From Halobacterium hubeiense (GTDB lineage Archaea > Halobacteriota > Halobacteria > Halobacteriales > Halobacteriaceae), in contig NZ_LN831302.1 of assembly GCF_001488575.1 (NCBI RefSeq), forward strand, positions 1,364,001 to 1,428,000: 64,000 nucleotides of DNA. The letters run 5' to 3'. A program made the position numbers and the translations under genes. Position 1 is the stretch's first letter; every line of letters starts with the position of its first letter. Below the pieces are notes generated by a model. The model did no database searches. It had not been told where the DNA came from and worked only from the letters and a program-made list of their open reading frames with translations. Positions 2,887 through 44,795 of this stretch are shown one piece after another.

Positions 2887-2931
2887 GGCCGTAGCTGAGG
2901 GCGGGCGGCGGCAAAAGCAGCGCGAAACGCG

Positions 2932-3387
2932 TCAGTCCGAGCGGTACTCCTTGCGGTAGCCGCGGAACTCCGTGCGGTGGGCTTCCTCGTCGGCGAGAAT
3001 CGTCACCGCGAGGTCCTCCGTGACGGGGTCGTCGGCGTCCTCGGCGGCGTCGATGAGGTCGCGGTACGTGTCGATCGCGTCCTCCTCGGCGTCGAGCACG
3101 CCGTCGATGACCGACAGCACGTCGGTGGTGTCCTCGGGCGGCTGGAGGCTGTGCTGGTGGGCTTCGAACTCCGCGGACGCGGGCGGCTGTTCGTCCAGTT
3201 GCTTGAGCCGCTCGCCGAGCTGTTCGGCGTGGGAGAGTTCCTCCTGGATGTCCGTCTGGAGGGACTCCTTGATCTCCTCGGCGCGCACGCCGTCGAGGAC
3301 GATGGAGTTGGTCATGTAGTTCATCACGGCCTCGATTTCGTCGCCGTACGCCTTCCGTAGCAGTCGCGTGACTTCCTCGCTCGTCAT
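2932..3387 (-). CDS. Ferritin-like (rubrerythrin/Dps-type) di-iron protein
   Basis: A 151-aa four-helix protein. It has two ferritin-like half-sites: an early Glu plus EELSHAEQ (about residues 50-57), and EEDAIDTY plus DEEAHRTEF (about 132-140), that is, two ExxH-type pairs able to bind a di-iron centre. The likely role is iron storage or peroxide handling in the cytoplasm. It matches the short ferritin-like family common in halophiles rather than classical bacterioferritin, since no heme-binding Met is evident. A TATA-like sequence (forward tcttaaag, 3411-3418) sits about 25 nt upstream of the ATG, so the transcript is probably leaderless. The substrate (iron versus peroxide protection) cannot be decided from sequence. 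Confidence 0.8.
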   Translation of the reverse strand: MTSEEVTRLLRKAYGDEIEAVMNYMTNSIVLDGVRAEEIKESLQTDIQEELSHAEQLGERLKQLDEQPPASAEFEAHQHSLQPPEDTTDVLSVIDGVLDAEEDAIDTYRDLIDAAEDADDPVTEDLAVTILADEEAHRTEFRGYRKEYRSD

Positions 3388-3446
3388 ACCGGCGACTACG
3401 CGTGGCGGTCTTAAAGAACCAGGTGGCGGTTCCGGATTGGCGAAAG

Positions 3447-4733
3447 CTACTCGCCGCGGACGTCGTCCATGTGGTCGATGCGCTCCTGCAGCAGCGCGTC
3501 CGTGCCGATGTCGCGGCGCACGCGCAGTCCTTCGGGGAGGTCGCCGAGCGCGGCGCTGGCCTCGGCTTCGGCGTCGGGAATCGAGGAGCCGAACCCGACG
3601 ACGGCGTACGACCGCGACGTGGTGGTGTAGATGCCGTCCTCGCGGGCGTCCACGCTCGCGTAGAACAGCTCGGCGTCGTCGAGGTCGGCGGCGTCGATGG
3701 TGACGCGGGTGCCGCCCTCGGGATTCGTCGGGTAGCCGTCGGGGACGACGTACTTGCAGACGGTGGCGACGTCCGCGAACTCGGGGTCCGGGAGCGGGTC
3801 GTCGTCGCGGGCCGCCGTGAGCACGTCGATGAGCGGCGTCTCCATCGTCGGGAGCGTGTTCAGCGCCTCGGGGTCGCCGAAGCGCGCGTTGAACTCCACG
3901 ACCTTCGGGCCGTCGTCGGTGAGCATGAACTGGCCGTAGAGGACGCCGCGGTACTTCGGGAGCGCGTCCACGACGGCTTCCAGCGTGTCAACGCAGGCCT
4001 CGTACTCGTCGTCGGTGACGAACGGGAGCGTCCAGTCCGGGCCGGTGTAGCTTCCCATGCCGCCCGTGTTCGCGCCCTCGTCGCCTTCGAGCGCGCGGCC
4101 GTGGTCGTGGGCGACCGGCGTCGGCCGGACGTCGCGGTTCGCGACGAACGCCTGCACGGTGACCTCCTCGCCGACGAGGCGCTCCTCGACGACCCACTCG
4201 TCGTGCTCGGAGGAACGCACGTAGTCGGCCGCTTCCGCCTTGGACAGTTGGTCGCCGGTGACGCGGACGCCCTTCCCGCCCGTCAGGCCCGCGGGCTTGA
4301 CGGCGACGTCGCCCTCGACGGACTCGACGTAGTCGGCGGCCGCGTCCGAATCCTCGAACGTCTCGAACGCCGCTTGGCCGGGGACGTCGTGCTCGGCCAT
4401 GAACTCCCGCTGGAACGTCTTGTCCGTCTCGATGCGGGCGTCGGCCTGCTTCGGGCCGAACGCGTAGACGTCCTCGTCGTCGAGCGCGTCCACGACGCCC
4501 GCGGCCAGCGGTCCCTCCGGGCCGACGACGGCGAGCGTCGCGTCCACGTCCAGCGCGTAATCGACGACCGCGTCGGGGTCCTCGGTGTCGAGTTCGCGGA
4601 AGCCGTCCGCGAGTTCGGCGATGCCCGGGTTGCGGTTGCCCGCGGCCGCGTACAGTTCGCAGTCGCCCGCGAGTTCGTCGGCGATGGCGTGCTCGCGGCC
4701 GCCGCCGCCGACCAGCAGGACTCGTTCGGTCAT
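3447..4733 (-). CDS. purD: Phosphoribosylamine-glycine ligase
   Basis: GAR synthetase, which joins glycine to 5-phosphoribosylamine with ATP in step 2 of purine synthesis. 428 aa, normal length. The N-terminal motif GGGGREHAIA (about residues 9-18) and the ATP-grasp loop GLTGGKGVRV are clear. Near the end of the ATP-grasp domain NARFGDPEALN supplies the Mg/ATP-binding residues. The start is the ATG at 4733, supported by a TATA-like element 26-32 nt upstream. It is monocistronic here, divergent from the DUF255 gene. Confidence 0.96.
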   Translation of the reverse strand: MTERVLLVGGGGREHAIADELAGDCELYAAAGNRNPGIAELADGFRELDTEDPDAVVDYALDVDATLAVVGPEGPLAAGVVDALDDEDVYAFGPKQADARIETDKTFQREFMAEHDVPGQAAFETFEDSDAAADYVESVEGDVAVKPAGLTGGKGVRVTGDQLSKAEAADYVRSSEHDEWVVEERLVGEEVTVQAFVANRDVRPTPVAHDHGRALEGDEGANTGGMGSYTGPDWTLPFVTDDEYEACVDTLEAVVDALPKYRGVLYGQFMLTDDGPKVVEFNARFGDPEALNTLPTMETPLIDVLTAARDDDPLPDPEFADVATVCKYVVPDGYPTNPEGGTRVTIDAADLDDAELFYASVDAREDGIYTTTSRSYAVVGFGSSIPDAEAEASAALGDLPEGLRVRRDIGTDALLQERIDHMDDVRGE

Positions 4734-12337: not shown

Positions 12338-12519
12338 GGTAGCAGGAAGCCGACCCGGCAGTAAACACCTATCGCCTGCCGGCGGAGAACACTCGCAGAC
12401 CGGGGGGTCCACCGGGGCGACGCGCACCGAGAACGCGGTCGCCAGCGGCTCCGGACTCGGACGTGGTGAGCGGCGGAATTACGGAAGAACAGCGCGTTCG
12501 CCGAGCGAACTGCGAGCGC

Positions 12520-41975: not shown

Positions 41976-42066
41976 ACCCGTGACGTTCGCCGCCGGCCCC
42001 AAAACCGTTTCTCAATCCGCGCAGGGGATTTTCGACTGCTCGGGCGACGAGTCGCGGAGAAGTCAG

Positions 42067-42148
42067 CGGTGAGGCTGGGATTTGAACCCAGGAGGCTGAC
42101 GCCACCGGTTTTCAAGACCGGCGCAATAGGCCGCTCTGCCACCTCACC
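42067..42148 (-). tRNA. tRNA-Ser (anticodon UGA)
   Basis: A class II tRNA. The acceptor 42142-42148/42068-42074 (GGTGAGG/CCTCACC on the minus strand) is followed by discriminator G, as required for Ser. The anticodon stem CCGGT/ACCGG holds the loop CTTGAAA (anticodon TGA). There is a long variable arm and T-arm CTGGG-TTCAAAT-CCCAG. No intron and no encoded CCA. Confidence 0.95.
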
Positions 42149-42207
42149 GCGCGAGCGGTCGTACGACGAGTGGACGGTTGAAACTGTCGTTGTCCGGCAG
42201 TCGGGAG

Positions 42208-42231
42208 GCCCCCGCCCCCAGATTTCGAGTG
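42208..42231 (-). repeat. ORB-like origin repeat 1
   Basis: On the minus strand it reads CACTCGAAATCTGGGGGC and continues into a G-run. It shares the CAnTnG-nAAA core and G-string with the other four copies around orc1. Confidence 0.6.
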
Positions 42232-42294
42232 TTCGACGGTGGAGCGGTGGGCGGCGATTACCCGTCGGGGTGAGTGCGCTGTGACGGGAACACG

Positions 42295-42314
42295 CCCACC
42301 CCGTTTTGCAAGTG
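42295..42314 (-). repeat. ORB-like origin repeat 2
   Basis: On the minus strand it reads CACTTGCAAAACGGGGTGGG, identical for 20 nt to the plus-strand copy at 43934. Confidence 0.75.
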
Positions 42315-42408
42315 TTCTCGCGAGAAATTCAGGGAGCGACGACGGCGCCGGACGAGCGGCCGTTCGAAGCGATATCGGAATCAGGCGATAGGGCGCTAAT
42401 TACGCGGT

Positions 42409-42426
42409 TTATTGAGGTTATTGAGG
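42409..42426 (+). repeat. Tandem TTATTGAGG repeat in the AT-richer segment
   Basis: Two contiguous exact 9-nt units within the least GC-rich part of the intergenic region upstream of orc1. This is a plausible part of a duplex-unwinding element. Confidence 0.5.
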
Positions 42427-42508
42427 CGCAGGGTGTGGCAGGAACTTCGGGGAGGAACGAGTGAAACAGACCGAACACGCGAAACTACCGAAACGATAGA
42501 ACCGAGGG

Positions 42509-42516
42509 TATTATAG
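42509..42516 (+). promoter_or_regulatory. TATA-like box of orc1
   Basis: The sequence tattatag lies 29-36 nt before the orc1 ATG at 42545; a short or absent leader is expected. Confidence 0.55.
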
Positions 42517-42544
42517 TGGACGGGCAGAAAGCGACTCGCAAGCG

Positions 42545-43729
42545 ATGAAGACGCCGTTCCGCGACCGCGTCGAGCTGTTCACCAACAAGGACGTCCTCAA
42601 GGACCACTACGAGCCCGAGGAAATCCTCGAACGCGACGAGGAAATCGACCAGTACGCCAACGCCCTCCAGGACGTCGTGGACGGCTGGGAGCCGGACAAC
42701 GTCTTCGTCTACGGGAAGACCGGCGTCGGGAAGACCGCGGTGACGCGGTACATGATGGACGCCCTCGAGTACGAGGCCGAGGAGCGCGAGGGCGTCGACG
42801 ACGTGGTGAGTGTCGAAGTGAACTGCCACCACCACCCGTCGTCGTACCAGGCCGCCATCGCGCTCGTGAACGAACTCCGCGCGGACACCGACCGCGACCC
42901 GCTCACGACGGGGCTATCGACCTCGGACGTCCTGAACGCGCTGTTCGACGAAATCGAGGCGCGCGAGGGCACCGTGCTCATTGTGCTGGACGAAATCGAC
43001 AACCTCGGCGACGACGACATGCTGCTCTACCAGCTCCCGCGCGCGAAGACCAACGGCAACATCTCGGACTCGCAGGTCGCGGTCGTCGGCATCTCGAACG
43101 ACTACACGTTCCGCAACGACCTCTCGCCGAAGGTCCAGGACACGCTCTGTGAGCGCGAGATCAAGTTCCCGCCGTACGACGCCAACGAACTCGTCACGAT
43201 TCTCACCGACCGAGCCGAGCGCGGCCTCCGCGGGGACGTTCTCGAAGACGGCGTTATTCCCCAATGCGCAGCCCTCGCTGCTCGCGACCGCGGGAGCGCG
43301 AGGCAGGCCATCGACCTCCTGCGGGAAGCCGTCAACGTCGCCGTCGAGGACGGCCGCGAGGTCGTCTCCGAGGAGGACGTGGACACCGCAGTCGAGCGCG
43401 TCGAGCGCGGCCGCATCAAGGACTCCATCAAGGACCTCACGACCCACGGCCAGTACGTCCTGCTCGCGGTCACGCAGATGTCAGTCAGCGGCGAGACGCC
43501 GGCTCGCGCGAAGGAACTCTACGAGGTCTACGAGGAGGTCGCCGCCGAGTACGCCGCCGAACCCCTGAGCCAGCGCAGCGTCCACGACCACCTCAACGAC
43601 CTCTCGATGCTGGGGTTCCTGCGCCAGCACGACCGCAACTACGGCCGCGGCGGCGGGCAGTTCTTCGAGTACGAGCTCGACGTCGACGCCGAGATGGTCC
43701 GCGAGGCGATGGCCGACGAAGCCGAGTAG
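42545..43729 (+). CDS. orc1: Orc1/Cdc6 family replication initiator
   Basis: A 394-aa AAA+ initiator that binds ORB elements and recruits MCM. It has Walker A YGKTGVGKT (about 58-66), Walker B VLIVLDEIDNL, sensor-1 GISNDYTFRNDL, and the arginine-rich box ARDRGSARQAIDLL. A C-terminal winged helix (about 300-390) contains SQRSVHDHLNDLSMLGFL. It closely resembles the initiator linked to the conserved chromosomal origin of halophiles rather than the divergent plasmid types. ORB-like repeats occur on both sides of the gene. Confidence 0.94.
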   Translation: MKTPFRDRVELFTNKDVLKDHYEPEEILERDEEIDQYANALQDVVDGWEPDNVFVYGKTGVGKTAVTRYMMDALEYEAEEREGVDDVVSVEVNCHHHPSSYQAAIALVNELRADTDRDPLTTGLSTSDVLNALFDEIEAREGTVLIVLDEIDNLGDDDMLLYQLPRAKTNGNISDSQVAVVGISNDYTFRNDLSPKVQDTLCEREIKFPPYDANELVTILTDRAERGLRGDVLEDGVIPQCAALAARDRGSARQAIDLLREAVNVAVEDGREVVSEEDVDTAVERVERGRIKDSIKDLTTHGQYVLLAVTQMSVSGETPARAKELYEVYEEVAAEYAAEPLSQRSVHDHLNDLSMLGFLRQHDRNYGRGGGQFFEYELDVDAEMVREAMADEAE

Positions 43730-43860
43730 CGGGTTCCGTCTTCTTCCTCCACTTCTCTCCACTTCCCATCTCCATCTCGCCTGTACTACTTATTCCACAC
43801 CACCTATTCCACCTACTCAATCGCTTTCCGCCGCATCCTCGCTGCTAGTTCTCTCTCGAA

Positions 43861-43882
43861 CATTCGAAAACCGGGGTGGGGG
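43861..43882 (+). repeat. ORB-like origin repeat 3
   Basis: Reads CATTCGAAAACCGGGGTGGG and two more G. Same core and G-string as repeats 2 and 4. Confidence 0.7.
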
Positions 43883-43933
43883 AGACTCTCATCCCCTCGC
43901 TCTCGACGCTCCCCACTAGCTTCGCGCTGACTT

Positions 43934-43956
43934 CACTTGCAAAACGGGGTGGGGGC
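43934..43956 (+). repeat. ORB-like origin repeat 4
   Basis: Begins CACTTGCAAAACGGGGTGGG, identical over 20 nt to repeat 2 on the opposite strand. Confidence 0.75.
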
Positions 43957-43989
43957 CCTCGCCCGAAGACCCTCGTCGCTCTCGAACAA

Positions 43990-44006
43990 CACTTGCAAAC
44001 GGGGGT
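43990..44006 (+). repeat. ORB-like origin repeat 5
   Basis: Reads CACTTGCAAACGGGGGT, one A shorter in the A-run; the G-string then turns into CCCC. Confidence 0.65.
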
Positions 44007-44030
44007 CCCCGGGGACGAGTCCCGAGAATC

Positions 44031-44795
44031 TCACTCCCGGACGAGCACGCGCTCGCCGTCCTCCTCCTCGACGCGGAGGCCGAGGTCTTCGACGTACGCG
44101 GTCGTGAACGCGGGGACGACGCGGCCCGCGGCGCGGCGCGCGCGCAGTTCCGTGACCAGCGAGACGAGGTCGTCGCCGGTGCAGACGCGCGTCTGCTCGT
44201 GGAGGAAGTCGATGTCGTGGCCGGCGTCCACCGCGCGCGCGGTCACGTTCTCGATTTCTGGTGCGTCCCACGCGCCCTCGAAGTCGATGGGCTCGCGGAA
44301 GCCAGCGAAATAGAGGCTGCCGCCCCGAGAGGGGCCGACGACGACGGGGTTCCGACGGAGCTTCAGCGCCGCGCTGTCGACGTGCTTGCGCGCGACCAGC
44401 GGCGCGTCGGGTTCGAGGACGGCGACCGACGCTACGTCCTCGGCGTCCAGCAGGTGCGTGACCGTGTTCCCGACGCGGGCGTGCTTCGACGACCCGACCT
44501 GCACTTCGACGCGCGCGTCCGCCGCTTCATCCTCGTCGAGCACGTCCTCGACGAAGTCGCGGACTTCCCGCTCGGCGTCCGCCCCCTCGGGGACGTGTTC
44601 GTCGGGGAGCAGGTCGTCCGGCCGGTAGTTCACGAGGAGGTCGCCGCCGCTGTCGGTCACCGCGCGGAACGCGTCGGCGGCCATCGCCTCGTACAGCGAG
44701 ACGGCTTCGCGCTCGGAGAGCGGCGACGTGGCTGCCAGTTCCGGGAGTACGAGTCCTTCCCGCGGCGGGTCGACGGGGACGGCGACGACAGTCAT
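44031..44795 (-). CDS. Conserved origin-adjacent protein, nucleotidyl/glycosyltransferase-like
   Basis: A 254-aa protein beginning TVVAVPVDPPREGLVLPEL. It contains LLVNYRPDDLL, a central VASVAVLEPDAPLVARKHVD segment and the VVGPSRGGSLYFAGF motif. This layout recalls TIGR04282/DUF2064-type GT-A-fold transferases (a strand ending near a DA/DP pair, then G(P/S)xRGG), but no metal-binding DxD is clear. Its position beside the orc1 origin appears conserved in halophiles. The activity is unproven. Confidence 0.65.
   Translation of the reverse strand: MTVVAVPVDPPREGLVLPELAATSPLSEREAVSLYEAMAADAFRAVTDSGGDLLVNYRPDDLLPDEHVPEGADAEREVRDFVEDVLDEDEAADARVEVQVGSSKHARVGNTVTHLLDAEDVASVAVLEPDAPLVARKHVDSAALKLRRNPVVVGPSRGGSLYFAGFREPIDFEGAWDAPEIENVTARAVDAGHDIDFLHEQTRVCTGDDLVSLVTELRARRAAGRVVPAFTTAYVEDLGLRVEEEDGERVLVRE

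Follow-up and report, generated by a model that had tools for sequence, protein, structure and literature searches.

An ORB-flanked orc8 cassette in Halobacterium hubeiense as a candidate secondary replication origin

Gene content and ORB layout of the orc8 locus

The window analyzed here, a 64,000-nucleotide stretch of the Halobacterium hubeiense genome (G000:C1:1364001-1428000), belongs to a 3.13-Mb genome in four contigs, with contig C1 measuring 2,510,607 bp. It carries an intact gene for an Orc1/Cdc6 initiator of 394 amino acids (42545..43729, plus strand) featuring AAA+, Cdc6 lid and winged helix domains. To the left lies tRNA-Ser(TGA) (42066..42148, minus strand), whose conserved upstream block spans 42173-42197, and to the right a CofC-like gene (44031..44795, minus strand). 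All four orc8 knockout primers published for strain NRC-1 (PMC1906834) bracket the ortholog of H. salinarum DSM 3754 (L034) in the correct order and with no more than one mismatch each, and the gene is therefore orc8; the name orc1 used in an earlier note on this DNA is incorrect, and orc10 is ruled out by the same primers.

With Orc8 as query, C1 also holds oriC1/orc7 at ~3 kb, a distant Orc at 2.43 Mb (29%) and a marginal match at 1.81 Mb (25%, E 1.9e-5); the remaining Orc genes found are located on C2-C4. If C1 is a closed circle, orc8 and oriC1 are 1.1 Mb apart (44% of the circle). The nearest Orc8 paralog in the genome (L097, G000:C2:128356-129528) shares 43% and is probably not orc10, because two orc10 primers have no match at its H. 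salinarum ortholog. As a separate observation, the Orc7 match in G001, G002 and G003 (L207-L212) falls into two parts around residues 173-188, both in a single open frame, which resembles an insertion.

Two minus-strand ORBs precede orc8, namely ORB1 (AACACTCGAAATCTGGGGGCGGGGGC, 42208..42233) and ORB2 (AACACTTGCAAAACGGGGTGGGCGTG, 42291..42316), and three plus-strand ORBs follow it, namely ORB3 (AACATTCGAAAACCGGGGTGGGGGAG, 43859..43884), ORB4 (TTCACTTGCAAAACGGGGTGGGGGCC, 43932..43957) and ORB5 (AACACTTGCAAACGGGGGTCCCCGGG, 43988..44013). All five are recovered by matrix score and all except ORB4 by a degenerate 18-mer pattern, ORB2 and ORB4 also by an exact 16-mer, and ORB1 and ORB2 each form a conserved block. 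The earlier note had described five G-string copies in this arrangement, and its particulars hold: the copies at 42295 and 43934 are identical over CACTTGCAAAACGGGGTGGG (20/20), and the G-strings of all five are directed away from the gene. As an inventory it was nevertheless incomplete, having overlooked a sixth ORB at 12388 and an array of G-string-less repeats at 42473-42503.

These repeats are rare elsewhere. In the 3.13-Mb genome, the exact 16-mer CACTTGCAAAACGGGG occurs only in the copies at 42295 and 43934, and at three mismatches its count is down to about the level of the reversed-pattern control. A 20-column ORB matrix built exclusively from 28 ORBs of six other Halobacterium genomes assigns 25.7-33.2 bits to the five copies around orc8; one other site exceeds 14 bits (26.3) in 1.12 Mb of same-chromosome stretches, some of them overlapping, and the window holds one additional high scorer at 12388 (25.8 bits). 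With zero mismatches allowed, a whole-genome scan with the 18-mer pattern returns four of the orc8 copies together with the 12388 site; ORB4 (43932) is missed because it begins with TT where the pattern fixes AA, and reversed 18-mers give no match in this genome. The motif is thus not widespread by 16-mer, matrix or 18-mer counts, and the equal density throughout the genome that the earlier note had named as a refutation is not observed in them. That the repeats are due to chance or composition and have no binding function can practically be dismissed: G-runs and GC-rich words are common at ~70% GC, but this explanation is contradicted by the cross-species matrix and by the phylogenetic footprint described below, as well as by the whole-genome pattern counts and by reversed controls that are almost all zero.

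Both spacers adjoin orc8, and they contain two (upstream) and three (downstream) ORB-like repeats with the halophile G-string. PMC3528665 uses an intergenic region adjacent to orc/cdc6 and at least two such repeats to recognize an origin of this type. The ORB/Orc module is real, and its kind is the published haloarchaeal orc/cdc6-adjacent origin. The flanking of the initiator gene by two ORB sets, previously regarded as unusual, is not new, since PMC3528665 already described in 2012 ORBs in both intergenic regions of several genes, among them Halobacterium orc8 and orc10 and Haloarcula cdc6E.

Cassette borders, empty sites and a remote ORB

Comparison with empty sites delimits an ORB-orc8-ORB cassette of ~1.83 kb (42198..44030), which contains ORB1, ORB2, orc8 and ORB3-5 and no other gene between its borders. 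No orc8 ortholog is present in two congeners with 99% completeness (G007 and G012); there, only ~10 bp or less separate the tRNA-Ser upstream block (GAAACTGTCGTTGTCCGG) from the stop codon of the CofC-like gene. Three other genera (G019, G023, G024) likewise have tRNA-Ser adjoining the CofC-like gene, with an empty cassette site, so this arrangement is probably the ancestral one. G007 and G012 are a clade inside Halobacterium; none of three trees supports a particular position for it, and either a loss of the cassette in this pair or its primary absence would fit. In G011, which matches Halobacterium sp. KA-4, ~230 extra bases lie between tRNA-Ser and the usual upstream block (L038, ~870-1126).

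Orthologs beyond the genus occupy other sites, between purF and a tRNA-Leu gene in Halarchaeum and adjoining tRNA-Arg in Haloprofundus. Halarchaeum G018 lacks a full orc8 and retains only the part encoding the C terminus of Orc8, between the end of purF and tRNA-Leu (L136, G018:C1, ~2900-3559); this remnant is a decayed orc8 copy. Insertion by an integrase at a tRNA 3' end, the classical route, was considered and rejected, the cassette being located on the 5' side of tRNA-Ser and no duplicated tRNA piece being visible by eye at its borders.

The sixth ORB (beginning AACACTCGCAGACCGGGG; 12388..12413, plus strand) is situated 30 kb from orc8, with the EF-1-beta gene on one side and the thiI start on the other. 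Its 18-mer is identical and occurs once each in nine orc8-bearing genomes, with the variant AACACTCGAAGAGCGGGG in a tenth, and its place upstream of thiI was confirmed in G000, G001, G003, G004, G005, G008, G010 and G011 (G002 and G006 were left out). The thiI flank can be aligned in G007 and G012, but the ORB is absent and neither genome has an exact 18-mer match; as these are sister genomes, the joint absence of remote ORB and orc8 represents one evolutionary contrast. The remote ORB may serve in titration or regulate thiI. Outside the orc8 locus, more exact ORB matches occur in some species (G002:C1:213456, 2693118 and 2812259; G005:C1:1086899 and C4:92798; G006:C3:10006; G003:C1:883463; G008:C1:1052429), of which at least those in G006 and on C1 of G005 seemingly lie inside genes; they are possibly extra Orc8 sites or chance.

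Near relatives that either carry or lack the intact cassette offer a natural experiment on a closely defined unit. In combination with the co-distributed remote ORB, the gain or loss of a secondary archaeal origin therefore becomes directly testable, as does the control of an archaeal initiator by distant binding sites, as for bacterial DnaA. More speculatively, and with low probability in our view, the cassette could be a minimal mobile replicator, devoid of integrase or other genes, that settles 5' of tRNA genes (Ser in Halobacterium, Leu in Halarchaeum, Arg in Haloprofundus) and then gained or kept the distal thiI ORB as a datA-like titration or timing site for archaeal Orc1/Cdc6.

Upstream spacer, skew and origin activity

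In the Halobacterium orthologs, orc8 is preceded by two ORBs on the minus strand and followed by two or three on the plus strand (three in most, two in H. salinarum; the third copy in G003 has one G changed). When the upstream regions are aligned, conservation marks the tRNA-Ser upstream element, ORB1, ORB2 and a fourth block next to the start codon, and the spacers diverge freely. The start-codon-side block consists of GAAAC/AGAAC units at 9-bp spacing that run into a TATA-like box. In the window, this promoter-proximal array is located at 42473..42503 (plus strand; spacings of 8, 9 and 9 bp), and its first unit is a G-string-less ORB core (AACACGCGAAAC, 42474-42485, AACAC-G-CGAAAC) on the strand opposite to ORB1 and ORB2. 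Counted over 11 distinct orthologs, those of Halarchaeum and Haloprofundus among them, there are 26 'GAA' pairs at lag 9, compared with 0.64 on average and never more than 5 in 2000 letter shuffles, a figure that does not translate into a probability because the related sequences are not independent. The conserved TATTATA box (42509..42515, plus strand), a putative promoter element, lies ~30 bp before the orc8 ATG, a spacing that would suit a leaderless transcript.

In each of the 13 orthologs scanned, the 60 bp of lowest stability within the upstream spacer fall on this same block (42456..42515 in the window), which is our candidate unwinding element. An AT-rich stretch at ~42395-42430 was dropped for this role because the relatives do not retain it. 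Downstream of the gene, the tract 43762-43821 is unstable in the window, and no low-stability stretch with a conserved place was found across the relatives scanned. In archaeal origins proven by function, inverted ORBs flank an AT-rich unwinding element. At orc8, the upstream low-stability stretch is bordered by full ORBs on a single side, opposite which lies the G-string-less core, and 1.5 kb including the gene separates the full inverted arms. A full G-string ORB facing ORB1 and ORB2 is absent from the orc8 upstream spacer in Halobacterium, where only the G-string-less array occurs; in Halarchaeum nitratireducens (L033) a full G-string ORB facing the upstream pair is present.

GC skew, measured on sampled stretches, changes over 50 kb from +0.011 to -0.021 at orc8, in the same direction as at oriC1 of this genome (+0.034 to -0.010). 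The inflection that had been proposed as a check is thus found with the sign of oriC1, but its size is also reached elsewhere: the 50-kb difference amounts to 0.028-0.032 in five orc8-bearing genomes and to 0.019 and 0.009 at empty sites, in comparison with a 95th percentile of 0.027 and a 99th of 0.032 in a null set that includes orc8 itself. As an origin signal, the switch is suggestive only: other places match its size, synteny of the left flanks does not extend across clades, part of the skew comes from gene orientation, and an orientation-corrected measure is inconsistent.

Coker et al. reportedly observed in 2009 the largest chromosomal peaks near orc7 and orc10. In NRC-1, the region next to orc8 failed to support autonomous replication, and the gene could be deleted and is dispensable (PMC1906834). 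Marker-frequency reports on NRC-1 orc8 conflict, with activity cited second-hand in PMC3528665 versus a review that lists only orc7 and orc10 (PMC4010727). The earlier claim of an active chromosomal origin is supported only in part: the skew switches in the oriC1 direction, with a weak effect, and in NRC-1 autonomous replication failed and orc8 is dispensable. We read the orc8 locus as probably a weak or backup chromosome origin.

These data bear on two further readings. We consider it rather unlikely that orc8 is a fully active origin used in every cycle, in which both ORB sets would be the two arms of one large gene-containing origin, as formerly suggested: outward G-strings as at oriC1, the sign of the skew switch and the activity cited in PMC3528665 speak for it, but the failed autonomous replication and dispensability in NRC-1, the omission of orc8 from the review and the conserved low-stability stretch upstream of the gene, and not within or beyond it, speak against it. 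An unlikely reading, too, is that no working origin exists and that Orc8 and its ORBs are kept as a regulator for autoregulation, for transcription control (e.g., of thiI) or as an initiator sink. The same NRC-1 results, the lack of orc8 in two congeners, its truncation in Halarchaeum G018 and the remote ORB at the thiI promoter would fit such a role, whereas the skew switch at the locus in five genomes, the full ORB arrays retained on both sides over the genus and a related module with a canonical inverted ORB pair (G023, see below) do not.

The reading that we favor, with modest confidence, is that the locus represents the Halobacterium orc8 replicator-initiator module and acts as a secondary origin. 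Orc8 would bind its own family of G-string ORBs; the two tandem upstream ORBs, together with the promoter-embedded array in the low-stability stretch, would form a putative initiation site and at the same time autoregulate orc8, as the position of the array at the TATA box may allow Orc8 both to melt the site and to repress its own promoter. The three downstream ORBs are expected mainly to titrate or regulate Orc8, by analogy with oriC2D of Haloarcula hispanica, and the origin would fire weakly or conditionally, 1.1 Mb from oriC1 on the 2.51-Mb chromosome. In Halobacterium, the upstream spacer, with no facing G-string ORB, may be a weakened initiation site, and this weakening would then explain the negative autonomous replication in NRC-1.

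In favor of this orc8 module are ORBs that keep their place and strand while the spacers diverge and that are rare elsewhere, the intact initiator and its orthology by primers, the presence or absence of gene and ORBs as a unit, and a remote ORB found only where orc8 occurs. The conserved low-stability promoter array, also seen before the Orc gene of G023, the skew switch that is smaller at empty sites, and the precedent of the Haloarcula array (PMC3936714) point in the same direction. Counting against it are the NRC-1 results (PMC1906834), the lack of inverted full G-string ORBs on both sides of the low-stability stretch, a skew effect that is small, partly due to gene orientation and matched elsewhere, and three downstream ORBs where oriC2D has 11.

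Comparison with known systems

The predicted orc8-proximal origin of NRC-1 and H. salinarum R1, as presented in PMC3528665, has the orthologous gene and ORBs in both flanking intergenic regions, and differs in belonging to another species. In H. hispanica, oriC2-cdc6E with oriC2D likewise combines ORBs upstream of the initiator gene with a second array downstream, and a cognate ORB cluster directly downstream of the initiator gene, typical of oriC2, is also found at orc8. The 11 downstream ORBs of oriC2D nevertheless contrast with three in the window, and oriC2D is a demonstrated negative regulator (PMC3936714), whereas such a role is predicted for the orc8 array. The oriC2 type is also characterized by a downstream array that reduces the activity of the origin and shows none of its own. 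Unlike oriC2, orc8 lacks a full G-string ORB in the gene-side part of its upstream spacer.

Within the same genome, oriC1-orc7 (C1, ~2.3-4.6 kb) resembles orc8 in that outward G-string ORBs and a stretch of low stability adjoin an orc/cdc6 gene. Its inverted ORB pair is, however, only ~0.2 kb apart around an AT-rich stretch with the gene outside the pair, and both initiator and ORB core sequence are different. The Orc7-type initiator with GTTCCACTCGAAACGAAGGGG-type ORBs that marks the oriC1 family does not occur at orc8, and oriC1 is a separate locus. For oriC1 of H. hispanica, loss of either inverted ORB or mutation of the G-string impairs autonomous replication (PMC3936714).

In another genus, an Orc module with a 41% identical Orc (G023:C1, ~364.8-366.6 kb; L225/L238), for which no publication was found in the PMC open-licence literature, displays the same layout, with ORBs upstream (two, minus strand) and downstream (plus strand) and 9-bp repeats before a TATA-like box. 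These 9-bp repeats contain the module's own ORB core AACACTTACAA. Unlike orc8, it has an additional plus-strand G-string ORB upstream, which yields a canonical inverted pair, and the ORB core AACACTTACAAT. ORBs with the latter core also occur in G007, a genome without orc8, at C2 ~88.7 kb (L233), next to an Orc-like sequence whose match is split in two. No mention of the cassette borders, the promoter array or the remote thiI ORB was found in the readable text of the PMC open-licence literature searched, PMC3528665 among it. With respect to the literature searched, the flanking of orc8 by ORBs was thus already known, and what is new here is the cassette defined by its empty sites, the promoter repeat array and the remote ORB at thiI.
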